From: a virus
Length of the DNA stretch: 45,072 nucleotides
Strand: one strand, 5' to 3'
Virus record (IMG/VR): IMGVR_UViG_3300005830_000063
Span: 1 to 45,072 of that record
Each line of letters opens with the position of its first letter. The first letter of the stretch is position 1. Shown here piece after piece: positions 11,708 through 35,929 of the stretch. The notes under the pieces are model-generated. The model worked only from the letters and a program-made list of their open reading frames with translations, made no database searches and had not been told where the DNA came from. The translations under genes and the position numbers were made by a program.

Positions 11708-12862
11708 ATGGCAACTGACAAGAAAGACATCAATGGCCCGGATTTTAATGCCTTAGGTAAAGCTATATGGAGCATACCTGATAACGCCATCAAAGCGATC
11801 GCCAATGCAACAGGGACCCCGTTACAGGTGCCTTCTCCTTCTTCCATAGAATCTGCCAATCCCATAACAAAAGGGCCGAGAAGCGTTTCCCCTCCTTCCC
11901 CTGCGGCAGTAGTGCCAAAAGTTCCGGCGATCGTACCGAGTGCGGAGGCGGCGGCATTGGCTACTAGCGTACCTAACAGCCTTGATACAATATCAGAAAG
12001 AAAAGCCGCATCAGGAATGACGTCACAGATCTTCAAGGATAATCCTCTTCTTTCTGGCGTAAACCTTAACCCTGCTCCGACGTCGGCCGGGACCATTACG
12101 GCAGATGGGAAAACCTATAACGTTCCCAAATCGTCACTGAGCAATGATGCCAACCTTGACATTATCAACCAGAACCGTGAAGCATCTGCAGGCCTTAATC
12201 CTGATATCATGGGAGCATTGAGGGCTTTCGGTGGGGATATTAACAAGGCTTCAAACTATCTTGCAACGAGAAGTCTGGAAGCAGAAAGAGCGTCAAGAGA
12301 TACCGGTCCCGATCTTATGACGAGATGGCAAGATGCAATCAAACAGGCCGGAATAGGAGCGACTACCGGGGGAATAAAATATGCTCGACAGGCCCAAAAC
12401 GCTATTGCTATACTTCAAGGGCTGATGCGTGAGGATACGGCAAACAGAGCTATAGATGCGAGAGAAAGAACTGATTTCGCCAATATAGATTCTAACGACG
12501 CTTATAGATCGGCTCAGCTTTCGGAATTGGCAAAGAAGGGGCCCCAAGTTGTCCAGGGCGAGGATAATATATATTCCTATAATCCAAAATCGGGGCAGTT
12601 TGAACCCACAGGCATAAAGCCGAGATCGAAAGAGTTTAAGCCTGATACCGTCCTTGACAATATCAAGAAGATATCAGATATCAGGAAAAACTATGCAGAA
12701 TCCGGTCAGGAACCGCCAAAGTGGCTTGCAGATCTCGAAACTCAGCTAACAGGCTCTACCAAGGGCAAAGAAGAAACACCGCCATTAGAGGGCGCAAGGC
12801 GCGCGCCCGATGGCAACTGGTACATACAGAGGAACGGGAAGACTTTTAAAGTGGAGAAATAG
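11708..12862 (+). CDS. Internal virion protein candidate, 384 aa
   Basis: The ATG at 11708 has a GAAGGAG site upstream; a GTG at 11693 is in frame but lies in the terminator tail. Residues 30-130 are rich in Pro, Ala and Ser and probably disordered. Residues 150-280 are helical and include PDIMGALRAFGGDINKA. The C-terminus carries GARRAPDGNWYIQRNG, a basic APDGNWY-type motif that I recall at the ends of several phage internal virion proteins. The next gene begins 1 nt after the stop. An ejected or internal virion role is inferred from this motif and from the polyvalent gene that follows. Confidence 0.6.
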   Translation: MATDKKDINGPDFNALGKAIWSIPDNAIKAIANATGTPLQVPSPSSIESANPITKGPRSVSPPSPAAVVPKVPAIVPSAEAAALATSVPNSLDTISERKAASGMTSQIFKDNPLLSGVNLNPAPTSAGTITADGKTYNVPKSSLSNDANLDIINQNREASAGLNPDIMGALRAFGGDINKASNYLATRSLEAERASRDTGPDLMTRWQDAIKQAGIGATTGGIKYARQAQNAIAILQGLMREDTANRAIDARERTDFANIDSNDAYRSAQLSELAKKGPQVVQGEDNIYSYNPKSGQFEPTGIKPRSKEFKPDTVLDNIKKISDIRKNYAESGQEPPKWLADLETQLTGSTKGKEETPPLEGARRAPDGNWYIQRNGKTFKVEK

Positions 12863-12863
12863 A

Positions 12864-15800
12864 TTGCCGAAACTCACGCCAGTTGACTATGATCCTTTTG
12901 CCGATGAGCAGAAGGGCAAGGCAGAGCCCAAGCTTACTCCGGTAGATTATGATCCTTTTGCAGAAAAACCCCAAGAAACGCCTTCGGCCATTCCTGGCCC
13001 TGATGCTTCTCTCGCTGATCGTGTCGTAAGCACCTTAAAGGCCGGAGGGAAGGGAGCATACCAAGGCCTTACTACAGAACTTCCGGGCATGGTCGGCAAA
13101 GCCATGGAGTTTATCGGCCGACCTTCAAATCCCCTAGATGGCGTCGGAGGAGCAATTCAGCTTCCCTTGCCCGGCATGCCGGCCGTTACAGCAGTCACAA
13201 AAGCTGTACCTTCAGTTGGAGATTTCATAGCCGAAAAAGGCAAGGAACTCAGCGGTTGGGCAGAAGAACGAGCAAAAAAAGAGCCGCTTGAACAGGCCGA
13301 TCTTTATACTCCTGAAGGGATGGTATATCAGGCAACCAAGATGCTCGCCCCTTCCCTTATACCGGGAGGGATAGCAACAAAGGCCGGAAAGATCGCTCTG
13401 GGCGTCAAGGGCCTCGCGGAAGCCGGGAAGGTAGCAGAGGCTACGGCGGCGGCCAAAAAGGCCGTAGATATCGGCTCAGCGGCCGCAGCGGGATTATTCG
13501 GACTATCTCAGGCTCAGCAAACAAAAGAAACGGCCGAAGAGGCCGGACAGCAACCAGGAATCACTCCATACCTTACAGGAGCCATAGAAGCACTCGGGGA
13601 ATTCCTCGGGACCAAATACTTCGCCAAGCTCCTTAAGCTCGATGAGGGCGGCATAACAAAGCCCGGAATGAAAGATTTCCTGAAAACCCTCGGCGTCGAG
13701 ATAGGTACGGAAATGGGCCAGAGTGGAGGCGAGGCGGCCGTAGAGAAGTATTCAGGCGTAAGACCGGGCGCAGATCCCATTAAAGAGGCCATTGACGTCA
13801 TAGGCCCCACAGCAATTATGACAGCCTTAACCGGAGGGCTCGGCCACATTGCAGGGCAAAAGCCTCAGGAGCAGGAAAAGGGTGCTCCTAAGGGCGAGCC
13901 TGGCACCACTGAAGGCAAAGAAATATCTCCGGCAGACATCAGAGTAAGGGAAGCTCTGGAAAAGGCCGCAGGCCGTCCATTGACAGATGAGGAATGGGGC
14001 AAGCTGACCGAGGCGGCAGCGGCAGAACAGAATCCGACAGAAATAGATGAGGCGGCGCACGAGGCCGCTACATCTCCACTTAACGATATCGAGCAACCTT
14101 CCGAGGCCCAGAAAAAGGCGGGCAATTACATTAAAGGGCACGCGACAATAGCAGGCCTCGATGTCACCATAGAAAATCCTCAGGGATCTATACGTTCCGG
14201 CGTATCTCCTGAAGGGCAGCCATGGCAGACAGAGATGCAATCACATTATGGCTATTTCAAGCGCAGTGAAGGAAAAGACGGTGATCAGGTAGATGCGTTT
14301 ATTAAACCCGGAACCCCTAAAAATTATGACGGTCCGGTATTCATCGTAAATCAGATAGACCCCAAAACAGGGAAATTTGACGAGCACAAGGTCATGGTAG
14401 GATTCGAGAGCCAGGCCGATGCAAACATAGCCTACCATGAGAATTACGAGCCCGGATGGAGGGGGATGAAAGATATCGTTCCCCTATCCATGGATGAGTT
14501 TAAGACATGGCTGAAAAGCGGAGAAACGAATAAACCTTTCGCTCCAAAGATACCGGCCGACCTGAAAGCCGATTTAAAGCCCTCTTCCGGGGAGAAAGTG
14601 CCTGATCATATAACGAGAGCCCTGCAGGAAGAAAGACCAGTGCCGCTCGCGGTATCGGTTAAAACAAAGCAGCTCACGAAAGATACCATCCAGGAACATA
14701 TTTCTTCCGGCGCGATCGCCGCGACGGCACCAATCAGGCTTACGACCGTTGACGAGATAAGAAGCATCATAAAGAACAACGGCCTTTCGGAAGGCAAAGA
14801 CTTCGAAGGCAAGGCCGGGATCTCGGCGCAGGTCGTTGAAGGCGGCAAGCCAGTTGTAGCATATGGAGCCAATGACAAAATAAGCGCGGCGATCGTCTTC
14901 CCGGAAAGCTCGATCGAGGGCAAAGGGCAGGCTCCGAATGAAGTAAAGATAAGCCAGAAAACGAATTTGGCAGATCTCCGATTCGTTGTCGATGGATACA
15001 GAGAGCTCATGACCGCAGAAGATCTCATGAAGATCATAGAGGGAGAGAAGGCGGCTCAAAAAGAAAGAAAGACATATCCCAAACAGGAAGCCATAAAAGC
15101 AAAGCAGAAAGAGGCGAAGCCTGCAGAAGAAGAAAAAATAAAAGTTATACACCATCCCATAACCGAGGACGAAAAACGGTTCGATACTCCCGAAGGCGAA
15201 GATAGACACGATTGGGAAAATAAGCAAGCGTTTAATAGGGCCAAGAAGCTCGGCTTTACCAAGATGGAGATAGATAGTGACGATTGGGCTAGATTCGAAC
15301 TTACTGATGATTTCGAAGTTGAAATACCCGGTAAAAAAGGTTGGGCCAGCTTCAATCATATCAATGTAGCAAAAGCTCCTAATGGTGAATGGGCCGCAGA
15401 TATTTCATATGTGCTCGGCAATCAAGGCGGTGGTGCATCACCTAGCATATGGAATACTGATTGGTATGCCGATCGAGATACGGCAATAAAAGCCGGGATA
15501 AAGAAGCTCAGGGCCGCTATTAAAGGCCGCATGAAAGACGATCTTTCCAAGACTGAAGAGGCCGATGCAAACAGGATTCTGAAGTATCTCGACGATCTGG
15601 AAAGCGGAAAGATAGAACCTACCCAGAGCGAAAGACAAAAAGAGCATAATGCTATACAGGCCAGGATAGATAAAATTGCCGAAAAGCTTCCTCCTGTCAA
15701 AAAAGGCACATATATGGCTGATATCCTCGGGGAAGAGGAAGAAAGCGAATTCAAGTATCATTATGAAATAGATGTCGATGGAAAGCCGGTATATGTCTTT

Positions 15801-17351
15801 ATAAAAACCGATGGCATAGTCGCAAGCATGGGCTCGATCCCTATGGAGCTGCACGTACCATCGAAAGACATAATTACGGAGACAGGATACAGAAGCGACC
15901 ATGTAAACATTGACGCATTAGAAGCTCCCGATGTCGAAAAAAGACTGAGGGCTTACCTTGAAGATCAGGCCGATAAAACTAAGCTTCCCAAGAAAAAGAA
16001 ATTCCCCAAACAGGAAGCACTGAAAGAAAAGCAGAAATCTAAGGCCAAACAAAAAGATATCAAACCTGGGACCGTAGGCATGATGTTGGAAGAGGGAGAA
16101 GTTGTAACTACCGTAACAGGCAGGGAAACTACACCATTCCCTTCTCTTAAATTTGGCAAGGGAACAAAAAGGACTTTGGCCCTTGTAGATAGATGGCTCG
16201 TTGATAATGCAGAAGCCGAGGCAGAATCAAGGGGTGATGAATTTAACCTGCTTCAGTTTAGGAATATGAACAGGAAGAATTTAAGCCCTGCAGATAAAGA
16301 CAGCGCGGAGATGTATCTTTTTGACAAGGAGGCCAAAGATGATAGTACCCGCAGGAAAGGACAGCCAGGGGAGACCGTTGTTCCGAGTGAAGAGCCACAG
16401 CGGAAAGAACCTGTCAAAGCCCATGCCGAGGAAGCAGGCGGAGCTAAGGCTGAAACAGGTAGAGATGTTCAAGCACATGAAAAAGTAGAGGGCCCCGTAG
16501 CGAATGAAAATGAAGTATATGAGAAAGATGATCCCCGAAATGAGAAATTCATGGAGGTCGTTGAGTATAGGACAAAGAAATACAAGGCCAAGATAACACT
16601 GCTTCATATTCCGGGAGAGGGATGGATTAGCGCTCTTGATCAGGGCCACTTGCAGGGCACCTATTCAGGAGGCGGTAGCCCTCTCATGAAAGGTGATGAA
16701 GCATTTTTAACCAGGGAGGAAGCCCTTGCCGAAGACCTGAATCGCTTGATAACGATACAATCTAGTTTCCTTTCCGGGCCTCAACCTAGCAATGCGACTG
16801 AAAATCAGATCAAAGAGGCGAAGAAGGCAGTAGAATGGGCCAAGGCTGAACTGAACAAGATTGGAAAGAAGGAAGGCCCGAATGAAGAGGAAACGCAGGA
16901 CGAGGCAGGAGGCTTCAAGGTTGGTGATTCCGTAACTGCGGTAAGTGTATTTTCTGGCGGCCTTATTGGGACGATTAAAGAAATTACCGATCATCCCGAA
17001 TTCGGCCTAAGGGCAAAGATAGAATGGGAGAAAAAGCCTGGATTTCATGCAAGCGAATCAGTATTACCGTTAGACAGATTGACGAAGGAGGCGAAGACTG
17101 ATGAAGTGCCCGAAGTGCGGAGCGAGGATGTTGGGGAACAAGTGCAAACGTTGCGGGAAGAGGGTATAGAGGGGAAACAAACAGAGATAAATATCGACGA
17201 GATCCCGGCCGACTTGATTGTGGAAGTTACGGCTATAAGGGAAAAAACAGGCAAGACCGTAAAGGTCAAGGAAAGTGCTCGGCGTGCGATCGCCGATCTA
17301 AATGCCAGTATTGAGCAATATAAAAAGCTTTTGGAGTGTCTAAAATCATGA
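12864..17351 (+). CDS. Polyvalent virion protein, 1495 aa, pyrophosphatase-like domain
   Basis: The frame extends upstream to 12810, but the TTG at 12864 has a GGAG site and follows the previous stop, so it is the chosen start. Residues 2-13 and 22-33 are tandem PKLTPVDYDPFA motifs. Residues 60-330 are Ala/Gly-rich helices, possibly amphipathic or membrane-interacting. Residues 418-554 match the pyrophosphatase-like domain described in phage and conjugative-element polyvalent proteins: GNYIKGHATIAGLDV, ENPQGS, HYGYFK, DGDQVDAFI, DEHKVMVGF. Further globular segments follow (about 583-728, 783-891 and 965-1020). A KOW/SH3-like segment (FKVGDSVTAVSVFSGG) lies near 1352-1402. Two small genes are nested in its linkers in the +1 frame. 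The protein is probably packaged and ejected with DNA. Confidence 0.8.
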   Translation: MPKLTPVDYDPFADEQKGKAEPKLTPVDYDPFAEKPQETPSAIPGPDASLADRVVSTLKAGGKGAYQGLTTELPGMVGKAMEFIGRPSNPLDGVGGAIQLPLPGMPAVTAVTKAVPSVGDFIAEKGKELSGWAEERAKKEPLEQADLYTPEGMVYQATKMLAPSLIPGGIATKAGKIALGVKGLAEAGKVAEATAAAKKAVDIGSAAAAGLFGLSQAQQTKETAEEAGQQPGITPYLTGAIEALGEFLGTKYFAKLLKLDEGGITKPGMKDFLKTLGVEIGTEMGQSGGEAAVEKYSGVRPGADPIKEAIDVIGPTAIMTALTGGLGHIAGQKPQEQEKGAPKGEPGTTEGKEISPADIRVREALEKAAGRPLTDEEWGKLTEAAAAEQNPTEIDEAAHEAATSPLNDIEQPSEAQKKAGNYIKGHATIAGLDVTIENPQGSIRSGVSPEGQPWQTEMQSHYGYFKRSEGKDGDQVDAFIKPGTPKNYDGPVFIVNQIDPKTGKFDEHKVMVGFESQADANIAYHENYEPGWRGMKDIVPLSMDEFKTWLKSGETNKPFAPKIPADLKADLKPSSGEKVPDHITRALQEERPVPLAVSVKTKQLTKDTIQEHISSGAIAATAPIRLTTVDEIRSIIKNNGLSEGKDFEGKAGISAQVVEGGKPVVAYGANDKISAAIVFPESSIEGKGQAPNEVKISQKTNLADLRFVVDGYRELMTAEDLMKIIEGEKAAQKERKTYPKQEAIKAKQKEAKPAEEEKIKVIHHPITEDEKRFDTPEGEDRHDWENKQAFNRAKKLGFTKMEIDSDDWARFELTDDFEVEIPGKKGWASFNHINVAKAPNGEWAADISYVLGNQGGGASPSIWNTDWYADRDTAIKAGIKKLRAAIKGRMKDDLSKTEEADANRILKYLDDLESGKIEPTQSERQKEHNAIQARIDKIAEKLPPVKKGTYMADILGEEEESEFKYHYEIDVDGKPVYVFIKTDGIVASMGSIPMELHVPSKDIITETGYRSDHVNIDALEAPDVEKRLRAYLEDQADKTKLPKKKKFPKQEALKEKQKSKAKQKDIKPGTVGMMLEEGEVVTTVTGRETTPFPSLKFGKGTKRTLALVDRWLVDNAEAEAESRGDEFNLLQFRNMNRKNLSPADKDSAEMYLFDKEAKDDSTRRKGQPGETVVPSEEPQRKEPVKAHAEEAGGAKAETGRDVQAHEKVEGPVANENEVYEKDDPRNEKFMEVVEYRTKKYKAKITLLHIPGEGWISALDQGHLQGTYSGGGSPLMKGDEAFLTREEALAEDLNRLITIQSSFLSGPQPSNATENQIKEAKKAVEWAKAELNKIGKKEGPNEEETQDEAGGFKVGDSVTAVSVFSGGLIGTIKEITDHPEFGLRAKIEWEKKPGFHASESVLPLDRLTKEAKTDEVPEVRSEDVGEQVQTLREEGIEGKQTEINIDEIPADLIVEVTAIREKTGKTVKVKESARRAIADLNASIEQYKKLLECLKS
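12867..12962 (+). repeat. Tandem coding repeat PKLTPVDYDPFA x2
   Basis: The segments 12867-12902 and 12927-12962 encode the same 12 residues with several synonymous differences, separated by eight codons. Conservation of the peptide rather than the bases suggests selection on the motif. Short VDYDPFA-like motifs at N-termini of polyvalent proteins are plausible packaging or docking signals (inference). Confidence 0.75.
16339..16488 (+). CDS. Nested gene A: 49-aa basic protein in +1 frame
   Basis: AAGGAGG (16326-16332) stands 6 nt before ATG 16339, and the frame runs 49 codons to TAG 16486-16488, wholly inside the 1495-aa gene in its +1 frame. The product is strongly basic and looks folded: GRPLFRVKSHSGKNLSKP, then a helix with RKQAELRLKQVEMFKHM. 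I recall small phage proteins with the same V-K-S-x(2)-G-x(2)-L-S-K core followed by an A-E-x-R-L-x-Q-V-E helix. The overlapping host segment (residues 1159-1209) is low-complexity, rich in E, A, G, K and P. Near-optimal initiation signals plus a family-like product argue for a real overlapping gene. Confidence 0.65.
   Translation: MIVPAGKDSQGRPLFRVKSHSGKNLSKPMPRKQAELRLKQVEMFKHMKK
17101..17169 (+). CDS. Nested gene B: 22-aa zinc-ribbon peptide in +1 frame
   Basis: AAGGAGG (17085-17091) lies 9 nt before ATG 17101, and the frame ends at TAG 17167-17169. The 22-residue product has four cysteines at positions 3, 6, 15 and 18 (MKCPKCG, then CKRCGK), a textbook minimal zinc ribbon or knuckle. It is in the +1 frame of the 1495-aa gene, whose own product there (residues 1413-1436) is an acidic linker. 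It is shorter than normal gene-calling cut-offs. The full CxxC-x8-CxxC pattern with a good ribosome binding site makes chance unlikely but not excluded. Confidence 0.55.
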   Translation: MKCPKCGARMLGNKCKRCGKRV

Positions 17352-23271: not shown

Positions 23272-23498
23272 TCATTACTCAGGGATACGGTGCCAAAACA
23301 GTAATAACGAGCGGTTATGGCAGTTATGTCCCTTCAATTATCGTTCCTCCACCGGCAGAAAGCAAAATTCCAAGTGGAGGATCTTACATCCCAGACGGCG
23401 TTATTCATCCAACAAAGCCTAAAATAAAAAGGCCGTATATTGACGACGACGAAGTTTTTGAGATTTTAGCAAAGATATTCGTGGAGGTAATTTCATGA
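23268..23498 (+). CDS. Hypothetical 76-aa proline-rich protein
   Basis: The gene begins in an ATGA overlap with the appendage gene and ends in an ATGA overlap with the giant polyvalent gene, so it bridges the two. The 76-aa product starts with Gly/Tyr-rich turns (ITSGYGSYVPSIIVPPP), has a Pro-rich middle, and ends with an acidic helix (DDDEVFEILAKIFVEV). It may be an attachment or trimerisation accessory for the fibre or a small virion protein. No family is recognised. Confidence 0.6.
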   Translation: MIITQGYGAKTVITSGYGSYVPSIIVPPPAESKIPSGGSYIPDGVIHPTKPKIKRPYIDDDEVFEILAKIFVEVIS

Positions 23499-26400
23499 GC
23501 TCATTAGCGAACTGCTTAAAAATACATAATATATCTCCTGCTGAGGCAAAGCTTATTCGCCAGAAAGCAAAGGATTACAAAAGAGAGAAATTCAGTGCCA
23601 AGGAAGCCAACGAGGGCGCAGTACAGGACGTTATCAATCAGTTTATCCAGGAGAGAGAAAACATAATCCGGCAGATCGAGGCGGCGAAGAAAGGAGGCAA
23701 AGAAAATGCCAAAGTGCAAGAAACCCAAAAAACCGTAACCGAAGTAACTCCATTCACAAGGGGATACATTGTCAAGGATCGGCTATCCGGCCGCATCGGT
23801 GTTGTTGTCCGTCCGACATATCCGGGGCGAGTGGAGGTAATTTTCAATGACGGCCGGCGAGATGAGTTTGGGCAGGTTCAGCTTATAAAAACTGAAGAAT
23901 TCGCCGTCAGCGATCAGGCTATAGATCTGCAAAAATTTGTCCTGAGCAAAGAGCCAGGCCAGCTCCCCCATGAAAAGCTGAAGTCTTTAAAAGCAGGAGA
24001 TACCTTCTCACATGGATTACATACCTATAAGATTACGGACATTTACGAGGATGGTTCAGTCAAAGCGCTCGATATAACCAACAAGAAGAAGCCTATCGAA
24101 AGAGTATTCCATGATTTCGAGAAAGAAACCCATCTCAAGCTAGACACTTCAGAAGCGAAGAAGCCGGAGGAATATGGCACCAAAAATACCGTGTTCACAA
24201 AGGAGAGGGCAGACGCGGCCAGGGAGAGATTACGCAAGAAGCTCAACCGGGTATATATGGGCCTCGATCCAGAGATTGTCAGGGATGGCATTGAAATAGC
24301 CGGATTCCATATTGAGGCAGGGGCCAGGAAGTTTAAGGATTATTCCCTTAAGATGATTGAGGATTTCGGGGAGGCTATCAGGCCTTACCTGAGGTCGTTT
24401 TACATGGCAGTAAGAAATTATCCCTCCTTTGATAACGAGGGAATGAATACCGAGGCCGAACTGGATTTGATCGAGAAGCAGGCAGAAAAGGGCGAGGAAA
24501 CAAAGCCGTATTTTATTTACCAGAAAGAAACACGGAATTTTATGGAGGTGGACGGCAAAAAGATAACGTTCGAAGGCTTTGAAACCAATGATCTTTTTAT
24601 CTACCACCATCCTAAGGATACGATCGATAATTGGGCTATCTACGAGGGCCATTCTGGAATAAAAGTCTCTGGCGGCCGCACGAGGAAGGAAGCCATTGAA
24701 AATACACGCAAGTTATTGGAAAAGAACAAAGATAGAATCGAAGAAGCTATTAACAGGGCAATAGAAAGTACCGGAAGATCTCCGAGGTATGCAGGTGTTG
24801 ACTTCGGGGAGCAAAGTGCTAAAATAAAGCCAGAAGGAGTTATTGATGAAAGCTTGGGTACAGCAGGCAATCAACCACTGGAAGGAGTTTCAGCCGAAGA
24901 GGTACGAGGAACTTCAGAAGGCGGGCCAACTACAGCAGGAGGCGGAGAGCGCGGCAGAGCTGACCGAGAAGGCACTGGAAGAACTGATGTCGCAGGGAGC
25001 GACGTTCTCGGAGGCGTGGGAGCAGGTGAGAGAGTTATACCTATTCCCGAAGGAAGAGCCGAACTTGGAGACGTCAGAGAAACAGGACGACCTGAGCGCA
25101 CACAAGATAATAAGCTCGGAAATGCAGAGCCTTCAGGAAGCACTGAACGAAGCGGATTAACCCCCACTCCCGGAGAAATAACCCCGAAGCAAAACTACAC
25201 GATCACCGATGCCGATAATCTAGGCAAAGGGTCTCAAGCACAGAAATTCGCTGACAACGTAGCGGCTATCAAGCTGATCAAGAAACTTCAGGAAGAGGGC
25301 AGGCAGGCCACGCCTGAAGAGCAGGCCGTCCTTGTTCGATATGTAGGGTGGGGCGGTATCAAAACTGCCTTCCCAGACGAAACCGGGAAATTCAATAAAG
25401 GATGGGAAAAGAAGGGTCAACTACTTAAAGATCTGCTCAGCAAAGAAGAATGGGACGCTGCATATAGCACCATTCTTGACGCCCACTACACATCACAAGC
25501 TGTAATTAACTCCATGTACGAGATTGTAGACCGGCTCGGTTTCAAGGGCGGCAATGTCTTGGAGCCATCTATGGGCACCGGTAATTTCTTTGGCCTCATG
25601 CCTCTTAGCATGAGAAACGATTCGGCCCTTACCGGAGTGGAATTCGACAATATTACCGGAGCCATAGCGAAACAACTATACCCGAATACGCATATCATGG
25701 CTCCAATGGGATTTGAGGATGCAAGATTCGCTGATAATTTCTTTGATCTCACAATAGGAAATCCACCATTCGGCAACAGGCCGATACCGTATGGTACGAG
25801 TAAACACCTAAAGGGATTCACCATCCATAATTATTTCTTTGCGAAATCATTGGATAAACTGCGCCCTGGCGGTATTCAGGCAATGGTAGTTTCGAGATGG
25901 TTTCTTGATAAAAAAGACGCATCACAAAGAGAATACCTGGCCCATCGAGCTAACTTCATCGGGGCGATCCGGCTACCGAATACGGCCTTTCAGGAAAATG
26001 CACTCACAGAAGTAACCACGGATATTGTTATTTTCCAGAAACTTCCCGAAGAGGCATATGGCAGTGCAGATAAATCATGGACGAAGACCGGGATGGTACA
26101 GGACCCACTCGGCGGCGAGGACATAGAGATCAGCCAGTATTTCATAGATAATCCCGTGATGATGCTCGGCCGCATGGAGCGCAGCGGGAAAATGGTAACT
26201 GGCATGGAGCCCACTCTTGCATACATAGACGGTTCAGATATCAACGCCATGATGCAGGACGCCATTAATCAGCTTCCCCAGAATATATACGGAGAGACCG
26301 GGACCGTATTGCCAACCTATGAGCTTACAAGGGAAAGTGTCGAGCCTGCGCCGGAAGGCTACAACATTGGGTCTTATATCGTAGAGGACGGCAAGTTAAA

Positions 26401-29400
26401 GCATATCGAAGAATCTCCGGACGGCTCGCAAGTATCCGTAGAACTAACTCCGGAGACGCAATGGACAGAAAAACAAAAACTCGGGCAAGGAAGATATGAA
26501 AGGCTGATGAAGCTCGCTGAATTGCGCGATTCTGTACGAAAACTTCTTCGTCATGAAGTCCAGGACGATGCTAAATCCGTCATGGAGGAGGAACGGGAAA
26601 AGCTCAATAAGCTTTATGACGAATTTGTAAAGGAGCATGGATATCTCAACAATACCGCCAATGCCTCTCTTTTCCATGACGATCCTGATAGCCCTCTTCT
26701 TCTCGCTTTAGAAAACAATTATGAGAGGGGTATCAGCAAGACAGTGGCGGCAAAGCTCGGTATCAAACCTGAAAAGCCGACAGCCAGTAAGGCAACGATA
26801 TTCAAGAAAAGGGTTATTTCTCCATATGTTCCAGTAAACAGCGCTGATACGGCCGAAGACGCCTTGATGATCACGTTATCTCAGCTTGGAGAGGTAAACA
26901 TCACTCACATGGCAAACCTTACCGGCAAGGAAAATAGCGAGATAATAAAGGAACTTCACGATGATCTTGAAAACCCGATCATCTTCCTGAATCCTGAAAC
27001 CGATACCTGGGAGCAGGCTTCGAAATATCTGAGCGGCAATGTCAAAAAGAAAGAGAAGATCGCGCGTGAGAAGGGCCTGATAAAAAACGCTGAAGCTTTG
27101 AGGGCCGTATTCCCTCCTGATATAAAAGCCTCGGATCTATCCGTTAAGCTCGGGGCGTCCTGGGTCAACGAAAAGACATATGAGGATTTCGCTAAATACC
27201 TGTTCGGAGATGAGGCCGACGTAGTAGCAAAATATATAGCTACAGACGGCAGAATTATCATCGACATAAGGGGAGGCAATGAAGGCAAATTACGCAAATA
27301 CAGCACGCCGCGCATAGATGGGCCAACCCTTCTTAAGAAAATCCTCGGATCAGCGAACATCGCAGTGTATGACGTCCTCGATGATGGTTCACGGCAGATC
27401 AATAAAGATGCAACGGTAGCGGCCATTGCAAAGGCAGATGAGATCCGGCAGGAATTCGAAGATTGGATATTCAGTGAAGCCGGGAGAAGAGATTCACTGC
27501 TCCAATTCTATAACGATAACTTTAATACTGATGTCGAGCCTAAATACGATGGTGAACACTTACTGCTACCCGGCAAGGTGCCTGATGCCACTATTCAGCT
27601 ACGCAGACACCAGAAAAACGCTATATGGAGAATCATTCAGGATCAGAAAGCATTACTCGACCATGTAGTAGGTGCAGGCAAGACCTATACCATGGTAGCA
27701 GCAAGCATGGAAATGAAGCGCATGGGAATTGTAAGGAAGCCCATGATAGTAGTCCCTAACCATCTGGTAACTCAATGGGCGAAGGATTTCTATACCTTGT
27801 ATCCGGGAGCAAAGATCCTCGCCATGAAAAAGAAGGATTTCGAAAAGAGAAACCGGAGAACTATGCTTTCCAGAATCGCTACAGGAGATTGGGATTCCGT
27901 CATTGTAGCACATTCCAGTTTTGGCTTTATCAACGTAGATAAAGAGTGGGAAGCATCATTTATCAAGAAACAAATCGACGATCTGATGGAGGCTGCCAGA
28001 ATCACCAGAGAGACGGAGGGGAAGAGAAGCCGGAGGGCGAGCGAATATCAGAAGGCGGTCGAGCGCCTTCAGGCAAAACTAAAGGCCCTGCTTGATAAGC
28101 CGATCGACAATATTCTTACCTTTGAAGAGCTCGGCGTCGATCATCTGTTTGTAGATGAAAGCCACGAATTTAAGAATCTTTTCTTTACAACGGCAAAGCG
28201 CATGCTCGGCCTCGGCAACCCCATGGGAAGCCAGAAGGCAATGAATCTGTATATGAAAGCCCAATGGTTACAGCAGAAGCACTCTGGCAAGGGAGTGGTA
28301 TTTGCAACCGGCACTCCGGTCAGCAATAGCCTCAGCGAGCTTTATACGATCCAACGCTATCTCGGGCTGCAGGATCTTGAAAACAGAAACATAAAGTCAT
28401 TCGATGCATGGCTGAACAACTTCGGGCTAGAGCAGAGCGATTACGAATTGGACAGCACGGGAGTAAAGTTAAAGGCCGTGAATCGCCTCAGAAGCCTTAC
28501 CAATATCCCTGAAATTATGTCGCTTTATAAGCAATATGCTGACGGAGTGACAAACGATGATATCAAAAAGGCCTACAAAGAACAGACCGGCAAGGAATTT
28601 CCCATACCCGGTATCAAGGGCGGCCAGAGACAGAATGTTGTCGTAGATCGCTCAGATGATCAGGCCGCATATTTCGCAGATATAGTACAAAGGGCAGACG
28701 CCGTAGAGAAAAAAGATGTAGAGCCAGAAGAAGATAATATGCTGAAGATCACCACTGATGCTCGAAAAGCGGCCCTTGATATCAGGCTCGTAGATCCAGG
28801 AGCAAGCGATCATCCCGGCAGCAAGACTCACGTAGCCGCTGACAGGATAAGGGATATTTGGGAAAAATGGTCGGCAGACAAAGGGACGCAGCTTGTTTTT
28901 CTCGATCTGTCAATCCCTCTCAGCGCATCAAAGAGAGAACAGGCCAGTATCATAGATCTTATCAACAAAGCAGACGCGGGAGATGAAGAGGCTCAGCTTG
29001 CCCTTGATAAGCTAAATCCTGATGATCTTGTTGCCGCAGAATCAGCAAAAAGCGGATTCAGTGTATATGACGACCTGAGATCAAAGCTTATTGATCGTGG
29101 AATTCCTGCAGGGGAGATAGCTTTCATCCATGACTACAATACGGACAATAAGAAGCAGGATCTTTACGATATGGTCAACGCCGGGAAGATAAGGGTGCTT
29201 CTCGGGAGCACTTCCAAATTGGGCGCAGGGACGAACGTTCAAAAGAAGTTGGTAGCGGAGCATCACCTTGACTGTCCTTGGAGGCCTTCCGACATTGAGC
29301 AGAGAGAAGGAAGGATTATTCGCCAGGGCAATGAGTTAGTTGAAAAATATGGTGTCGGTAAATTCGATGTCGAGATTCATGCGTATGCTACAGAACAGAC

Positions 29401-32400
29401 TTATGACGCTCGTATGTGGCAGGTTCAGGAGCAAAAACTGATTGCTATAGGAGCATTGCGGAGCTATAAGGGAGAAAGAGAGATTGAAGAAGTAGCCGCG
29501 GCTGCCGCGACCGCCGCAGAGATGAAGGCCGCTTCAACCGGGAATCCTCTCATTCTTGAGGAAGTTAAGTTAAAGGATTCAATCAGAAAGCTCGAAATAA
29601 AGCAGAAGTCTCATAAGAGGCAGATATGGGACGCTGAAAGCGATATCAAGAAATTCGAACGGGCCCTCGAGGTCTTCCCTGAAGAGGTGAAGGATCTGGA
29701 AGTGGACGCCGAAAAAGTACGCAAGTATAAAGATAATCCATATGGCGAAGACAGGCCTTCCGTCAAAATACAAGGCAAAGAATACACAGATAGACAGGAG
29801 GCCTTAAAGGCGGCCAACGATGAAAAACTACGGCAAATCGGAGGCAAGGATGTAGAAACCCTTGTCAGAGAAACTCTCGTATTGAACATAGACGGAGAAG
29901 ACTATAAAGGCTTCGATACGATCAAGCAGTATATCGTCGATCATATTTCAGAAGGCTTCAATGTTTTGGTCGATGGAAAGAAAAAGCATGTATCAACAAA
30001 GGATAGAGCAGAGAGCATAGTTTCTGACGCCATGGATGTAAGAGAAAAAGAGGTAATGAAATCTCTTCCGAAGTTTTCTATCGATATCAATGGCACGCCA
30101 GCGACAAGCTCAACTGCAATAACGAAAGCCATACATGACGCCTTTGGTGACATGGACCCTTTTGCTATGGAGATCGGAGGCAAAGCCTACATAAAGAGAT
30201 CTGATGCCGGAAAGGCCGCCCAGGACATGATCGACGATCAGTTGCCAACGGTAAAGGGAGATATGCTGTCAAATTATCGTGTTGGTACTTTTGCAGGCAT
30301 GGAAGTCTTCATAGACGCCTTGAATCATCCAAAAGAATCACATGGGAGGATGTACGAATTCGAGGTATCGATAAAACTCAGGGGGAAGTCTACCCAAATA
30401 GATTCCGGCATTGTAAGCAATACGCCGGGAATGGAGATATCCAGAGTAGAGAGATTGGCTAAGCATATTATTTGGGAACTGAGCACGAAGAAAGCGACCT
30501 TGAAATCAGCCAAAGAGCAAATGCCTGTTCTACAACAGATTTTATCTAAGACATGGCCGCAGCAGCAGGAGCTTGACGAAAAGAAGGCGAGGCTCGCTGA
30601 GGTACAAAAAATACTTTCCGAGAAGCCGAAAAAGCAGGAAGAAGAGGGCGGTGAAGCACCTGCGCTATCCCTATCCGAAGATGAAGACCTGAAGGCCTTC
30701 GCGCAATCCATAGAGGCGAAAAATGCTTTCGGATCGGCAATGAATCCGGAAACTTCTGACGATTACCTGGCCCTTCTGAAGAAAGACTATATGACGCTTT
30801 CAGACCGGGAGAAATTCATTGTAGACAATCTGATGAGCCCGGAATACAGTCTTGGAGACAGAAAAGCCGCAGGCCTCGACATGGGAGAAGTTAAGGCCTC
30901 GATCGTTGATCTTCAGAAGGAATGGAAGAATGGTCCGGATATCCGCGTGGTTCAATCCCAAGCGCAATTACCGGATCGCCTGCAGAAATACATATCTTCC
31001 TCAAAGGGCAAGGGAGCCGTGGAGGGGATATTCGATCCCAACACCAAAGGTATTTATCTTGTAGCTGACAACCTTAGATCGATCGGGAGAGCTCATGTTG
31101 TTCTATTTCATGAGGCAGTAGGGCATTACGGCCTTAGGGGTATCCTGGGCGGTGATATCGCTCCTATCTTGAATCAGGCCTACATAGCGAAGAAGAAGGA
31201 AGCCGATCAGATAGCCAAAAAGTACGGCCTCGATGTCAGCACTCAGGAGGGAAAGCAGCGCGCTGCCGAGGAAGTGCTTGCTCGTATGGCAGAGAAAAAT
31301 GAAAAGTCACCGTTCCTTCAGAAAGTCTATGCAGCGATAAGAAACTGGCTCAGGAAAATAGGCTTTAATATCAACCTGTCAGACAACGATCTAAGGGTAA
31401 TGGTATCCCAGGCTCGCCAGTTTATCGAGGAAGGCAAGAAACCCTTGAATCTTAGCGGCCTAGCCGCCATGAGCAGGAGAGAGGCAAGGGGAGGTTTCTA
31501 CTCTCAGCTTTATAAGGTACTCGACAATAAGTTGCCTGATCAGGTTACTCCTACACTGTTCAATAAGGTGATCGGCCAGCATCGTGAAGGCATACTCGGC
31601 ATAAAGCCGGAAGAGATAGCAGACACCAAGGCAACCGTCTCAGCGATCTTCGGGGATAAGAAGATCCTGCCGAAACAAGAGATATTGGATTATCTGAGAG
31701 CATCGGACAGGACCGATGTTCAGGATGTTGTTTTGGGAGGCGATTCTAAATATAAGAAATTATTGGATAAATTTTCCAGAAAAGTTAGTAAGAGACTAGG
31801 CCGCCAAGGATGGACATTTGAAGATCTAACAGAGGAAGAATATAAAGAGTATTACGAAATTTATAAGCGAAAAGATGTGTCTTATTACACTACTCTTATA
31901 GCTGAAACAAAAGCAGAGAAAGATAAGGTACTGGAAGATTTTAAGGAGGCAGAAAATGTTTTTGATAGGATTTCCGAAAACTTAAAAAAAGGTATCCCAG
32001 TAGGTTCGTCAAATAAGAAATTTTATGATGACTATTTTAAGAATGGGAATCCGTTTGAAGCTGAACTATATAGATTATATGACAAGATAAAGATGCTGGA
32101 AGAGGAAAAGGAAAGGTCAGCAATTCAAGGAACGCATTTCTCGGAATATAGCATACCTGGATATATAACTGATAGTTATAGAGAACAATTTGTAACGGCG
32201 AAGAAAATATCCGGAGAAAAATTAAAAGATAATCCGGAGCAAAACTGGAAAGACGGCCATTCGGCATATTCAAATATCGAGAATCCGATTGTGCGAATAC
32301 GCTACAACGATCGAACGGATGCTGATGGCAACATCATAAGATTTATAGAAGAACTTCAGGGGCCAAACCCTGAAAACGAAAAGAAGATGCCAGAAATATA

Positions 32401-35400
32401 CCGGAAGTATAAATATCAGATAGGACTAAAGCGAATCCTTCAAAATATTGCTGAAGAGAACGAAACGAGAAAAGCTAATTTTGAAGATACAATAGATGCT
32501 ATCGCATGGACTACCGGAGATACGCAAGCTTACAGGTACAATCTCAGTACATATATCGATGAGATAGGTTATGCCGTTAATGACGATGGAACCTATGAAA
32601 TACATTCATATAAGCATGGAGAAGAATTATCTCAACTGACACAGAAAAATGTACCATCAGAAAAACTTGAAAATATTGTTGGCCTTAATCTTGCCAAGAG
32701 AATAAGGGCAGGAGAAGGTGCTAAAGATGGTGATCTGAAAATGTTTGGAGGCCTCGATCTTAAAGTTGGAGGAGAAGGCCTGAAAAGAGTATATGATGTC
32801 ACGATACCTAAATTCCTCAATAAATACGGAGAACAGTGGGGCGTGAAGGTCAAGGAGGTTGAGATTACCTTGGCGGGGATGAAGGATGCTGGCGACAGAG
32901 TTTTTGACACTAAGGCTGCCGCTATTGATTGGGCCGATGAGAACCTTGGAAATCACCAATACGAGATACAAAAGCGTGAGAACATCGGCGGATTTATTAT
33001 CTACGATTCCTACGACCATAAATATATTCAAGGGGATTCTGTGATACTAGCCTCTTCCATCCCTATCACTCCCGAGATGCAGGCCGATATCCTCCAAGAA
33101 GGGCAGCCGCTATTTGCGCGCCAGGAGATGAGCGTGGCCGAGCTCGAAACATGGAAGAAACAGACGGAGGAATTATACGCGGCCGAGCCGCTAACCGAAA
33201 CTGACGCGGTAGGACGGCTGAATCGCAGGCTTACTCTCCGGGAACTGGACAATGCCATTAAAAAAGCAAGGGAACGCGAAAAAACAGCGCCTATGTTCTC
33301 TCGTGGCGATATCGATCCTGTATCCTCGGACTTCGCGGAAGTGGAGCAAAGAATTCAGGCGTCCAAGGGCGCACCAAAGGCGGGGCTTAAAGAGAAGATA
33401 ACCAAAGGTATCGAAAGAACTGCCCATTCCTTTACCAGACATTTCCCTCTTCTGGACCCGAAAAGAGACGGAGCAGAATCGGATATCCTGAGAAGAGCGG
33501 AAAGCATACCGGAATATGCCAAGAAGACCGCGACGAAAGACATAGCGGCCATTGTCGGTAATTTAAGAAAAAATCAGGCCGAAGTGTTTACTCGCGTACT
33601 GATACTGGACGATATGCTGAAGGATATCGAAAGCGGCCTCCTGAAAGGCGAACTGCCGTTCGGGTATGGCAACGAAGAGCAGGTAAGGGCTGATCTCGAA
33701 AAGTTTCAGCGCGCGGCAGATGGTAATGCCGAGATCCGGGCGGCACTGGAAAAACGTAAGCAATACATGGATAACCTTCGCAATCGTCTTGTCGGCAGGG
33801 GTTTACTCCATGAATCCGTCAATGAAGACGATCGCTATTTCCATCATCAGGTTCTTGAATATATGGCAATCCGGGCAGAGGGAGGCCAGTATACCGGCTT
33901 ATCTTCCGGGGATATGAGGCTGAAGAAAAAGGGATGGCAGCTCGCCAGAAAGGGCTCATATCTCGATTACAACACCGATTATCTTCAGTCTGAATTCGAG
34001 GTAGTATCACAGGCCCTTTCACAGATCGAGACGGCTGATACCATGAAAAGACTCAAAAGGACGGCCGATATTTCCGGCCAGGTGAGAGCCGAAGCAAGAG
34101 ATCATGACTTGGATAACTGGCAAGAGGCAATACCCGAGGGCTATACGATATGGCAGCCGGAAAAGGGGAATCACTTCTACCGCGTGCATGTCCTTACGGA
34201 AAGGGTCCTTGATCAACTCCTAGCCGATATCGACACATGGGATACAACCAAGAGTTTCGATGAACTCATGGAAAGCAACGAGGTTCGGCAAGTATTGGCC
34301 CTCGGAGGGAAAAAAGAACAGTGGGTTATCCCGGACAGGCTTGCAAAGACGCTCGATAATTTCAGGGCCTTTAAAGATGAGGGGCCGGTCGGCAAAGCCT
34401 CCAAATCTATTCTTAACACTTGGAAGCAATGGACGCTTTTAAATCCATTCAGGATCGTCAAATACAACCTGAACAACATGAGCGGCGACCTTGATATTGC
34501 TCTTGCATATAGCCCGAAGATCCTGAAATATGCGAAGGGAGCAATGGCCGATCTCTTAAGAGACCAGAGGAATAAAGCCGTTACTCCTGAGCTTCAGAAG
34601 GAACTGGATATAGCCCTGAAGAAAGGCGTCATAACATCAGGCATAACTATCCATGAGATTACGGACATAAACGAATCCGGCCTTTTCAGTATCCTTACAG
34701 GAAAAGATCATAATCTTATTCAAAAGATATGGAAAACCGCGAAAGATTATACGAACTGGCGCGAAAACATCCTGCGCCTCGCGGCCTACCGTCACTTTAA
34801 AAATGAGATCGACAATGGCAAAAAGGTATACGGAGCATCGAAAAAGGCCGAGATAGACAAGATCACGAATCCTGACGATCGTGCCGCTAAACTGGCCAGA
34901 GAGCTGATAGGAGATTACGGAAATGTCTCTGAGGCCGGCCAGTGGATCAGGGCCCATATGATTCCCTTCTGGTCGTGGGCTGAAATCAATGCTCCAAGAT
35001 ATGTTCGCCTTATGAGAAATCTAAAGAATGAAGGACGTACCACAAGAGATGCTCAGGGGATAATAGCCTGGAAGGCAACCAAACTCGGCCTGAAGGCCTC
35101 TATCTTGTTTGCCCTGATAAGCCTTTGGAATGGTACGTTCTGGCCGGACGAAGAGGAAGAGCTTGGCATAGGAGGCAGGAGACAGCTTCATATCATCCTC
35201 GGCAGAAATGAAGATGGCACGATCAGAACGCTAAGATTTCAAGGTGCCCTCTCTGATGCGCTTTCATGGTTTGGCCTTGAAAATCTTCCCCAGGATGTAA
35301 AGGATGTGACGAGCGGCAGAACAACCTTTAGCAAGAAATTCGAAGAGGCTTACAAGGCTCCAATAAACAAGGTGATTCAGGGAATGAGACCGCTTGAGAA

Positions 35401-35929
35401 GGTAGGCTATGAAGTGGCTACCGGGAAAACGCTTTACCCGGACGTTTTGAAGCCTCGGCCGATCAGAGATAAAGCCGAGCATATCTTTAAATCCCTATCT
35501 CTTGATATGCCGTACCGAGCAGCGACCGGAAAGCCGTCTCGGGGAGACGAAGTTGCAGGCTTCATTTCTTATAGAGTAGATCCGGGAGAGGCGGCCTATT
35601 ACGATACCTTGTCGGATATCAGGGATTTCCTTAAAGAGCATGACGTCGATGTTCCCGATATTTCTCCGACAAAACGCTCTAATGCCCTGTATTATTACAA
35701 GCAGGCAAAAAAATATGGAGATCAGGAAGCCAAAGAAAAATACCTGAAAGAATATCTCGATGCAGGAGGAAGGCGGCAGGATATTCTAAAGAGCATAAAG
35801 AAAAGCGATCCTCTTTCTTTTGTTCCAATTAAGCTCAGGGTTGAATATATGAAATCTCTGAACGGAGAGGACTTGAATACCCTGAATAGAGCAAGAGAAT
35901 GGTGGAGATCGACGTATTTTAACCAGTAG
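23495..35929 (+). CDS. Giant polyvalent protein, 4144 aa: methylase + SNF2 helicase + others
   Basis: Domains in order: N-terminal helices; SH3-like strands (86-130); a KLNRVYMGLDPE / AGFHIEAGARKF region (230-310) that I recall from many polyvalent proteins; a linker with a nested gene (451-556); an adenine-N6 methylase with LEPSMGTGNFFG (about 688) and NPPF (756-759); an SNF2-type helicase with GAGKT (1393-1397), DESH (1554-1557), ATGTPVSNS (about 1604) and a QREGRIIRQG motif VI (about 1935); coiled coils; an HEAVGHYG segment (2539-2546), possibly a metallopeptidase; a WTTGDTQAYRYNLS module (about 3005) in an AT-rich stretch; and a long helical C-terminus with one hydrophobic segment near 3870. 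Such proteins are proposed to be ejected and to protect or process incoming DNA. It is the last gene before a terminator. Confidence 0.85.
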   Translation: MSSLANCLKIHNISPAEAKLIRQKAKDYKREKFSAKEANEGAVQDVINQFIQERENIIRQIEAAKKGGKENAKVQETQKTVTEVTPFTRGYIVKDRLSGRIGVVVRPTYPGRVEVIFNDGRRDEFGQVQLIKTEEFAVSDQAIDLQKFVLSKEPGQLPHEKLKSLKAGDTFSHGLHTYKITDIYEDGSVKALDITNKKKPIERVFHDFEKETHLKLDTSEAKKPEEYGTKNTVFTKERADAARERLRKKLNRVYMGLDPEIVRDGIEIAGFHIEAGARKFKDYSLKMIEDFGEAIRPYLRSFYMAVRNYPSFDNEGMNTEAELDLIEKQAEKGEETKPYFIYQKETRNFMEVDGKKITFEGFETNDLFIYHHPKDTIDNWAIYEGHSGIKVSGGRTRKEAIENTRKLLEKNKDRIEEAINRAIESTGRSPRYAGVDFGEQSAKIKPEGVIDESLGTAGNQPLEGVSAEEVRGTSEGGPTTAGGGERGRADREGTGRTDVAGSDVLGGVGAGERVIPIPEGRAELGDVRETGRPERTQDNKLGNAEPSGSTERSGLTPTPGEITPKQNYTITDADNLGKGSQAQKFADNVAAIKLIKKLQEEGRQATPEEQAVLVRYVGWGGIKTAFPDETGKFNKGWEKKGQLLKDLLSKEEWDAAYSTILDAHYTSQAVINSMYEIVDRLGFKGGNVLEPSMGTGNFFGLMPLSMRNDSALTGVEFDNITGAIAKQLYPNTHIMAPMGFEDARFADNFFDLTIGNPPFGNRPIPYGTSKHLKGFTIHNYFFAKSLDKLRPGGIQAMVVSRWFLDKKDASQREYLAHRANFIGAIRLPNTAFQENALTEVTTDIVIFQKLPEEAYGSADKSWTKTGMVQDPLGGEDIEISQYFIDNPVMMLGRMERSGKMVTGMEPTLAYIDGSDINAMMQDAINQLPQNIYGETGTVLPTYELTRESVEPAPEGYNIGSYIVEDGKLKHIEESPDGSQVSVELTPETQWTEKQKLGQGRYERLMKLAELRDSVRKLLRHEVQDDAKSVMEEEREKLNKLYDEFVKEHGYLNNTANASLFHDDPDSPLLLALENNYERGISKTVAAKLGIKPEKPTASKATIFKKRVISPYVPVNSADTAEDALMITLSQLGEVNITHMANLTGKENSEIIKELHDDLENPIIFLNPETDTWEQASKYLSGNVKKKEKIAREKGLIKNAEALRAVFPPDIKASDLSVKLGASWVNEKTYEDFAKYLFGDEADVVAKYIATDGRIIIDIRGGNEGKLRKYSTPRIDGPTLLKKILGSANIAVYDVLDDGSRQINKDATVAAIAKADEIRQEFEDWIFSEAGRRDSLLQFYNDNFNTDVEPKYDGEHLLLPGKVPDATIQLRRHQKNAIWRIIQDQKALLDHVVGAGKTYTMVAASMEMKRMGIVRKPMIVVPNHLVTQWAKDFYTLYPGAKILAMKKKDFEKRNRRTMLSRIATGDWDSVIVAHSSFGFINVDKEWEASFIKKQIDDLMEAARITRETEGKRSRRASEYQKAVERLQAKLKALLDKPIDNILTFEELGVDHLFVDESHEFKNLFFTTAKRMLGLGNPMGSQKAMNLYMKAQWLQQKHSGKGVVFATGTPVSNSLSELYTIQRYLGLQDLENRNIKSFDAWLNNFGLEQSDYELDSTGVKLKAVNRLRSLTNIPEIMSLYKQYADGVTNDDIKKAYKEQTGKEFPIPGIKGGQRQNVVVDRSDDQAAYFADIVQRADAVEKKDVEPEEDNMLKITTDARKAALDIRLVDPGASDHPGSKTHVAADRIRDIWEKWSADKGTQLVFLDLSIPLSASKREQASIIDLINKADAGDEEAQLALDKLNPDDLVAAESAKSGFSVYDDLRSKLIDRGIPAGEIAFIHDYNTDNKKQDLYDMVNAGKIRVLLGSTSKLGAGTNVQKKLVAEHHLDCPWRPSDIEQREGRIIRQGNELVEKYGVGKFDVEIHAYATEQTYDARMWQVQEQKLIAIGALRSYKGEREIEEVAAAAATAAEMKAASTGNPLILEEVKLKDSIRKLEIKQKSHKRQIWDAESDIKKFERALEVFPEEVKDLEVDAEKVRKYKDNPYGEDRPSVKIQGKEYTDRQEALKAANDEKLRQIGGKDVETLVRETLVLNIDGEDYKGFDTIKQYIVDHISEGFNVLVDGKKKHVSTKDRAESIVSDAMDVREKEVMKSLPKFSIDINGTPATSSTAITKAIHDAFGDMDPFAMEIGGKAYIKRSDAGKAAQDMIDDQLPTVKGDMLSNYRVGTFAGMEVFIDALNHPKESHGRMYEFEVSIKLRGKSTQIDSGIVSNTPGMEISRVERLAKHIIWELSTKKATLKSAKEQMPVLQQILSKTWPQQQELDEKKARLAEVQKILSEKPKKQEEEGGEAPALSLSEDEDLKAFAQSIEAKNAFGSAMNPETSDDYLALLKKDYMTLSDREKFIVDNLMSPEYSLGDRKAAGLDMGEVKASIVDLQKEWKNGPDIRVVQSQAQLPDRLQKYISSSKGKGAVEGIFDPNTKGIYLVADNLRSIGRAHVVLFHEAVGHYGLRGILGGDIAPILNQAYIAKKKEADQIAKKYGLDVSTQEGKQRAAEEVLARMAEKNEKSPFLQKVYAAIRNWLRKIGFNINLSDNDLRVMVSQARQFIEEGKKPLNLSGLAAMSRREARGGFYSQLYKVLDNKLPDQVTPTLFNKVIGQHREGILGIKPEEIADTKATVSAIFGDKKILPKQEILDYLRASDRTDVQDVVLGGDSKYKKLLDKFSRKVSKRLGRQGWTFEDLTEEEYKEYYEIYKRKDVSYYTTLIAETKAEKDKVLEDFKEAENVFDRISENLKKGIPVGSSNKKFYDDYFKNGNPFEAELYRLYDKIKMLEEEKERSAIQGTHFSEYSIPGYITDSYREQFVTAKKISGEKLKDNPEQNWKDGHSAYSNIENPIVRIRYNDRTDADGNIIRFIEELQGPNPENEKKMPEIYRKYKYQIGLKRILQNIAEENETRKANFEDTIDAIAWTTGDTQAYRYNLSTYIDEIGYAVNDDGTYEIHSYKHGEELSQLTQKNVPSEKLENIVGLNLAKRIRAGEGAKDGDLKMFGGLDLKVGGEGLKRVYDVTIPKFLNKYGEQWGVKVKEVEITLAGMKDAGDRVFDTKAAAIDWADENLGNHQYEIQKRENIGGFIIYDSYDHKYIQGDSVILASSIPITPEMQADILQEGQPLFARQEMSVAELETWKKQTEELYAAEPLTETDAVGRLNRRLTLRELDNAIKKAREREKTAPMFSRGDIDPVSSDFAEVEQRIQASKGAPKAGLKEKITKGIERTAHSFTRHFPLLDPKRDGAESDILRRAESIPEYAKKTATKDIAAIVGNLRKNQAEVFTRVLILDDMLKDIESGLLKGELPFGYGNEEQVRADLEKFQRAADGNAEIRAALEKRKQYMDNLRNRLVGRGLLHESVNEDDRYFHHQVLEYMAIRAEGGQYTGLSSGDMRLKKKGWQLARKGSYLDYNTDYLQSEFEVVSQALSQIETADTMKRLKRTADISGQVRAEARDHDLDNWQEAIPEGYTIWQPEKGNHFYRVHVLTERVLDQLLADIDTWDTTKSFDELMESNEVRQVLALGGKKEQWVIPDRLAKTLDNFRAFKDEGPVGKASKSILNTWKQWTLLNPFRIVKYNLNNMSGDLDIALAYSPKILKYAKGAMADLLRDQRNKAVTPELQKELDIALKKGVITSGITIHEITDINESGLFSILTGKDHNLIQKIWKTAKDYTNWRENILRLAAYRHFKNEIDNGKKVYGASKKAEIDKITNPDDRAAKLARELIGDYGNVSEAGQWIRAHMIPFWSWAEINAPRYVRLMRNLKNEGRTTRDAQGIIAWKATKLGLKASILFALISLWNGTFWPDEEEELGIGGRRQLHIILGRNEDGTIRTLRFQGALSDALSWFGLENLPQDVKDVTSGRTTFSKKFEEAYKAPINKVIQGMRPLEKVGYEVATGKTLYPDVLKPRPIRDKAEHIFKSLSLDMPYRAATGKPSRGDEVAGFISYRVDPGEAAYYDTLSDIRDFLKEHDVDVPDISPTKRSNALYYYKQAKKYGDQEAKEKYLKEYLDAGGRRQDILKSIKKSDPLSFVPIKLRVEYMKSLNGEDLNTLNRAREWWRSTYFNQ
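24846..25160 (+). CDS. Nested gene C: 104-aa helical protein in +1 frame
   Basis: AAGGAG (24834-24839) lies 6 nt before ATG 24846 (a TTG at 24843 is an alternative start), and the frame is open for 104 codons to TAA 25158-25160 inside the 4144-aa gene, in its +1 frame. The product is a soluble helical protein with native-like composition: AWVQQAINHWKEFQPKRYEE, then a Leu/Glu-rich helix, then FSEAWEQVRELYLFPKEEP. I recall stand-alone phage and prophage proteins with an HWxExxPxxYxxLxxxGxL opening, but cannot verify this. The host product there (residues 451-556) is a Gly/Arg/Glu/Thr linker of low complexity. This is the strongest of three nested genes. Confidence 0.72.
   Translation: MKAWVQQAINHWKEFQPKRYEELQKAGQLQQEAESAAELTEKALEELMSQGATFSEAWEQVRELYLFPKEEPNLETSEKQDDLSAHKIISSEMQSLQEALNEAD

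Follow-up and report, generated by a model that had tools for sequence, protein, structure and literature searches.

A likely small-protein gene of a widespread phage family nested out of frame in a polyvalent-protein gene

Introduction

Rz and Rz1 are functional partners encoded at one locus. In tailed phages, Rz1 may lie within Rz, an arrangement known as the embedded class (PMC9144972). A second described case is the ShiLan domain, a hidden HNH endonuclease in a phage methylase (Arsenault et al. 2025, PMC11855218). Polyvalent proteins have been treated by Iyer et al. 2017 (PMC5512222), whose main text, in a word search, touched on neither overlapping genes nor alternative frames. In the open-access literature on nested genes in polyvalent or DarB genes, only the ShiLan case was found.

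Here we analyze a 45,072-nt stretch of viral DNA (IMG/VR record IMGVR_UViG_3300005830_000063, positions 1 to 45,072; the window), in which a 49-codon reading frame at 16339-16488, hereafter the mini-gene, lies inside a long gene. As with Rz1, a small functional gene appears to sit wholly within another in an alternate frame; unlike Rz1, the mini-gene is unrelated to its varied hosts, which are of the polyvalent kind (InPase, ddrB-ParB, ART-PolyVal and DarA_C domains). The mini-gene has the ShiLan-type layout, i.e., a nested ORF out of frame in an insertion with the host frame open, and also resembles ShiLan in that the host reads the insertion as a poorly ordered loop and that the distribution is sporadic. 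In contrast, ShiLan is a 195-aa nuclease in a conserved methylase site with no Shine-Dalgarno (SD) sequence detected, whereas the mini-gene belongs to a 45-49-aa non-nuclease family that also occurs free-standing and in many unrelated polyvalent hosts, with a recognizable initiation signal.

With a probability of roughly 0.86, we consider 16339-16488 a genuine gene, one member of a small-protein family widespread in phages, carried as a cassette in a polyvalent linker and internally initiated. The same nested layout is present in at least 48 other contigs.

Results and Discussion

The mini-gene and its host gene

The features of the locus are as follows.

12810..17351, plus strand: host polyvalent gene, 1513 aa from the first ATG
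16326..16332, plus strand: Shine-Dalgarno sequence AAGGAGG, 6-nt spacer to the mini-gene ATG
16339..16488, plus strand: nested mini-gene, 49 aa, 5.7 kDa, computed pI 11.2
16341..16488, plus strand: mini-gene DNA in the host frame, a stop-free hydrophilic linker

According to the sequence and the ORF lists, the nested frame runs for 49 codons from the ATG at 16339 to a TAG ending at 16488, is shifted by +1 relative to the host ORF and encodes MIVPAGKDSQGRPLFRVKSHSGKNLSKPMPRKQAELRLKQVEMFKHMKK. No other out-of-frame ATG ORF inside the host gene reaches 40 codons. The initial annotation had reported AAGGAGG 6 nt before an ATG, 49 codons and a +1 frame, and re-reading the sequence gave the same; its placement within a larger gene likewise stands, while its host size of 1495 aa assumed a later start than the first ATG.

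The host gene carries an InPase domain (PF18823, aa 432-569, E 3e-53) and also matches PHROGs of DarB-like and other polyvalent families. It is thus a polyvalent-protein gene by being very long and multidomain with conflict-type domains. Over the mini-gene, the host frame reads DSTRRKGQPGETVVPSEEPQRKEPVKAHAEEAGGAKAETGRDVQAHEKV, with 10% bulky hydrophobics, a hydrophilic linker that agrees with the disordered linker proposed earlier for this frame.

Relatives and predicted fold of the mini-protein

The 49-aa product alone, used as query, retrieved relatives in 23 IMG/VR contigs, and alignment-based searches extended the family to 200-328 relatives, bearing out the earlier suspicion of a family-like basic mini-protein gene; MAGs of bacteria or archaea contribute 28 loci. 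Members share the motif YxVxSxxGKNLSKP...AxKRLxQVE[MY]FKH. The window product is homologous along most of its length and carries the C-terminal motif, and R37, Q40, V41, E42 and F44 are invariant in 66 family sequences. AlphaFold modeling on these 66 sequences gave a pLDDT of 93.6 with two strands and a C-terminal helix, so that a beta-beta-alpha fold is predicted with confidence. A homing endonuclease was rejected as the identity of the mini-gene (49 aa, no nuclease domain recognized, beta-beta-alpha model).

Searches of PHROGs, Pfam and INPHARED with the single 49-aa product returned no match at the thresholds used. With the family consensus, tblastn against INPHARED gave one good match, in Aeromonas phage 1233, the others being weaker and partial. 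In this phage (OR359403, L107:7001-7132) the mini-gene is free-standing and unannotated and is followed by a terminator-like inverted repeat. PHROG 3684 and PHROG 2859, both of unknown function, were matched weakly by 11/22 and 7/22 family members (best E 2.2e-5 and 1.5e-6, respectively), the PHROG 3684 matches in fused proteins spanning only part of the 262-position profile; the window product itself matched neither.

A PDB sequence search with the mini-protein gave one chance-level match, and fold searches gave no significant match (best Z 4.6). Among the best PDB matches with both aligners were DUF1508/UPF0339 proteins (NMB1088, YegP, ATU0232), which have a similar small beta-alpha layout. 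The likeness is weak, with a Foldseek E of at least 0.1 and Z of at most 3.7, the value of 4.6 being the top score over all chains. DUF1508/UPF0339 was not matched by sequence, and no A1 family member had a Pfam match to it.

Free, fused and nested copies

The family was resolved into 138 distinct loci, of which 71 are free-standing, 18 are fused in frame and 49 lie nested within a long ORF in another frame. L092, L096 and L098 were dropped from the nested class, as the mini-gene there only precedes the ORF or the overlapping ORF is short, while L181, L189 and L190 were added as truncated or near-5'-end cases. The 71 free copies, many in phage operons, agree with the proposed kinship to free-standing phage mini-proteins. 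They are often tightly spaced with their neighbors, which frequently belong to the terminase, portal/head-tail adaptor and major head protein families. In two fusions (L064 and L022), the family domain sits close to the beginning of a head-maturation-protease protein, in one case fused to capsid. From the free copies beside terminase, portal and capsid genes, and from some fusions to head-maturation-protease/capsid proteins, we tentatively suggest that the mini-protein may act in head assembly or DNA packaging.

The ORFs that harbor nested copies range from about 800 aa to over 2700 aa. These copies come from uncultivated contigs and one MAG, with none seen in INPHARED. Among 25 hosts scanned for polyvalent domains, InPase was found in five, and ddrB-ParB, ART-PolyVal and DarA_C in one each. 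All 49 nested copies have the same relative frame (host offset 2), across 25 contexts that are unrelated on both flanks. Similar small proteins therefore exist and the frame is conserved, two points on which the initial annotation had staked its proposal. TAG is the commonest stop codon of the nested copies (32/49) and TGA is absent from them, unlike in free copies, where TGA ends 28 of the 74 counted for stops.

Cassette behavior and distribution

Where unrelated hosts carry near-identical copies, the match begins about 8-14 nt ahead of the ATG and ends at the stop. In the pair L186/L187, 135/138 positions of the gene are identical and the flanks fall to near-random similarity once past about 8 nt on the upstream and 9 nt on the downstream side; identity in L151/L152 is 171/177. 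Over 42 cross-context pairs, mean identity is 0.85 in the mini-gene and 0.32 in the flanks beyond 30 nt. With the match limited to leader through stop, the gene behaves as a discrete cassette. A tree on 43 columns gives no count of nesting origins. De novo birth by overprinting of the host gene was rejected, since the family is free-standing and fused in many phages and near-identical copies occur in unrelated hosts.

Around the window's own copy, no relatives were found for the host segment downstream of the mini-gene. Upstream, L025-L027 share the same host domain and then continue with other sequence and no mini-gene. The mini-gene was absent from all records of the window's relatives by capsid protein (0/32, many of them fragments), and for this reason it looks accessory in the window's lineage. 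The codon-level conservation that had been proposed as a check is accordingly found in the nested copies of other phages and rests on these, the window's capsid relatives lacking the gene.

The mini-gene could instead serve mainly as a recombination anchor for swapping the flanking halves of polyvalent genes, its protein being dispensable. L142 and L168 are identical upstream and as far as nt 65 of the mini-gene, diverge over its remainder and carry different sequence directly after it, which suggests a crossover inside the mini-gene, and several pairs share one flank only, directly at the mini-gene. We nevertheless find this reading unlikely: an anchor has no need of the strong amino-acid constraint described below, and flank homology often resumes further on, so that local insertions or deletions could account for some cases.

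Sharp cassette edges at unrelated sites, absence from the capsid relatives and the out-of-frame, host-open layout (PMC11855218) would also suit a selfish mobile element, comparable with ShiLan, the hidden homing HNH endonuclease of mycobacteriophage methylases. This is less probable still, as the product has 45-49 aa and no recognized nuclease domain, target sites differ, a single copy per contig was found in 28/28 nested contigs searched, and many free copies lie in structural operons.

Probable initiation at the nested start

Start codons of the nested copies are ATG (45) or GTG (4). An SD sequence precedes 10 of the 46 copies then classed as nested, namely those of the window (W), L014, L039, L065, L095, L109, L163, L178, L191 and L197. 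In the window, AAGGAG overlaps host D-K-E codons that relatives lacking the mini-gene share (L025, GATAAGGAG); as these codons are native in such homologs, the host appears to have supplied the SD sequence.

The 36 distinct SD-less leaders, some of them from related copies, are rich in A, with frequencies of 0.83-0.92 at -12 to -14 and 0.81-0.94 at -5/-6, and outscore the out-of-frame ATGs in their host genes by a wide margin (p 1.5e-13). In Flavobacterium johnsoniae, A at -3, -6, -12 and -13 favors initiation (PMC6847099). The A-rich leaders partly match this pattern, and the bacterial hosts may accordingly belong to the Bacteroidetes. An Rfam search and RNA folding at the nested start revealed nothing notable.

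Programmed frameshifting, by which the N-terminal half of the polyvalent protein would alternatively end in the mini domain, is geometrically possible where the nested frame is open upstream, as in some copies including that of the window (18 codons), and in-frame fusions of the domain do exist. It is, however, very improbable: in 6/49 nested copies the start follows an in-frame stop at a distance of 0-1 codon, which leaves no room for frameshifting there, and the conserved ATG or GTG starts are preceded by SD or A-rich leaders.

Under internal initiation of a genuine nested gene, ribosomes would start at the mini-gene's own signal, an SD sequence in the window and A-rich, Bacteroidetes-type leaders in many relatives, and would yield a small basic protein with the predicted beta-beta-alpha fold. 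Ribosomes translating the giant gene would decode this DNA with a one-base shift, into a flexible linker.

Selection on the two overlapping frames

A host-type frame (offset 2) without stops was counted in 49/49 nested copies, 15/71 free copies and 0/18 fused copies. No family copy has an open third frame: each carries stops there, such as the ATGA at the start where the second codon starts with A. This fixes the relative frame of nesting. With codons drawn from each host gene's usage, the probability of an open host frame over the 25 contexts averages 0.026 (log10 of the product -64), in line with the earlier remark that such an arrangement is hard to obtain by chance.

Over 84 nested pairs, pN/pS is 0.18 in the mini-gene frame and 3.0 in the host frame, approximate values from simple counts in overlapping frames, measured on nested copies other than the window's. 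The host-frame value above 1 results from constraint on the nested frame and is no sign of positive selection. In the pair L058/L036, the nested frame has 16 synonymous and 0 nonsynonymous changes, and all 16 are nonsynonymous in the host frame. At 20-30% amino-acid difference, third-position divergence is 0.46 in nested and 0.62 in free copies. The host-frame peptide over the nested copies contains 17% bulky hydrophobics versus 28% in the rest of the host, and the start and stop codons of the mini-gene are kept across nested copies. Strong purifying selection thus preserves the nested protein, and what is retained of the host peptide is chiefly its open frame.

Another reading takes the nested frame for a chance product of a linker DNA module, with selection acting on the host-frame linker and the mini-protein not made. 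This reading can draw on a host-frame peptide recognizably alike between hosts (nD[KQ]EN..G..S..G.GQEPV.T.P...GG..QA.EE[VI]), but we give it next to no credence, because substitutions fall on synonymous sites of the nested frame and alter the host peptide, start and stop are kept, and the protein is also encoded by free and fused copies, of which most free ones and every fused one have stops in the host-type frame.

A second hidden gene in the DarB-like giant gene

Another nested gene, at +1 inside a gene of 4144 aa, emerged when the window's long genes were scanned.

23495..35929, plus strand: giant DarB-like gene, 4144 aa, host of the second nested gene
24846..25160, plus strand: second nested gene, about 104 aa, predicted all-helical, unrelated to the mini-gene, with the SD sequence AGAAGGAG ahead

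Its product matches the C-terminal end of PHROG 938 (E 1.5e-9) and is predicted to be helical, with a pLDDT of 92-98 over residues 1-70. In IMG/VR, 64 of 69 loci of this second family are nested in a DarB-like gene at offset 2, 61 of the 64 with an SD sequence; over 94 pairs, pN/pS is 0.29 in the nested frame and 1.62 in the host frame.

Matches were also found in the cultured phages Pavtok, PEp14, Stean, LASTA, SopranoGao, SJM3, VvAW1, POI1126, Atu_ph08 and Itty13. The frame was checked against the annotated giant CDS in eight phages (Pavtok, PEp14, Stean, LASTA, VvAW1, POI1126, Atu_ph08 and Microcystis phage Mwe-JY07); the ORF is offset by 1 in all of them, and none of the eight records annotates it. 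ORF analysis gave the nested layout for Itty13 too, whose record annotates the other strand. In Sinorhizobium phage PBC5 (L293 / L358), the DarB-like gene is split into two CDSs, with the second-family domain in frame at the end of the first, shorter one, which may reflect a real frame change or a sequencing error.

The window therefore holds two unrelated nested examples, the second of which also lies in the DarB-like gene of cultured phages of several genera. We lean towards the view that polyvalent genes are recurrent docking sites for hidden out-of-frame cassettes, conserved small genes that predate the arrangement and occupy the only relative frame able to stay open, and that the disordered linkers between polyvalent domains are in part the shadow translation of these genes. 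The usual course of overprinting would then be inverted: an existing conserved gene becomes nested and the giant gene gains a linker. Such nesting offers a concrete explanation for some polyvalent linkers and for how polyvalent modules can be exchanged. Since standard annotation assigns one gene per stretch, conserved genes inside the largest phage genes are missed; the second family makes the hidden-gene pattern directly testable in cultured phages.

Further candidate nested ORFs

All-against-all comparison of out-of-frame ORFs in a small set gave two more small clusters of interest. A fourth candidate nested ORF, basic and of 50-55 aa, is common to two polyvalent genes (L039:6327-6479 and L178:6117-6284) and had no match in INPHARED. 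A third nested ORF, of 76 aa with GGAGG ahead (L288:23-253, L295:257-487 and L296:242-472), was found only in Erwinia phages Pavtok, PEp14 and Stean, where it lies in the DarB-like gene and is 68-74% identical.
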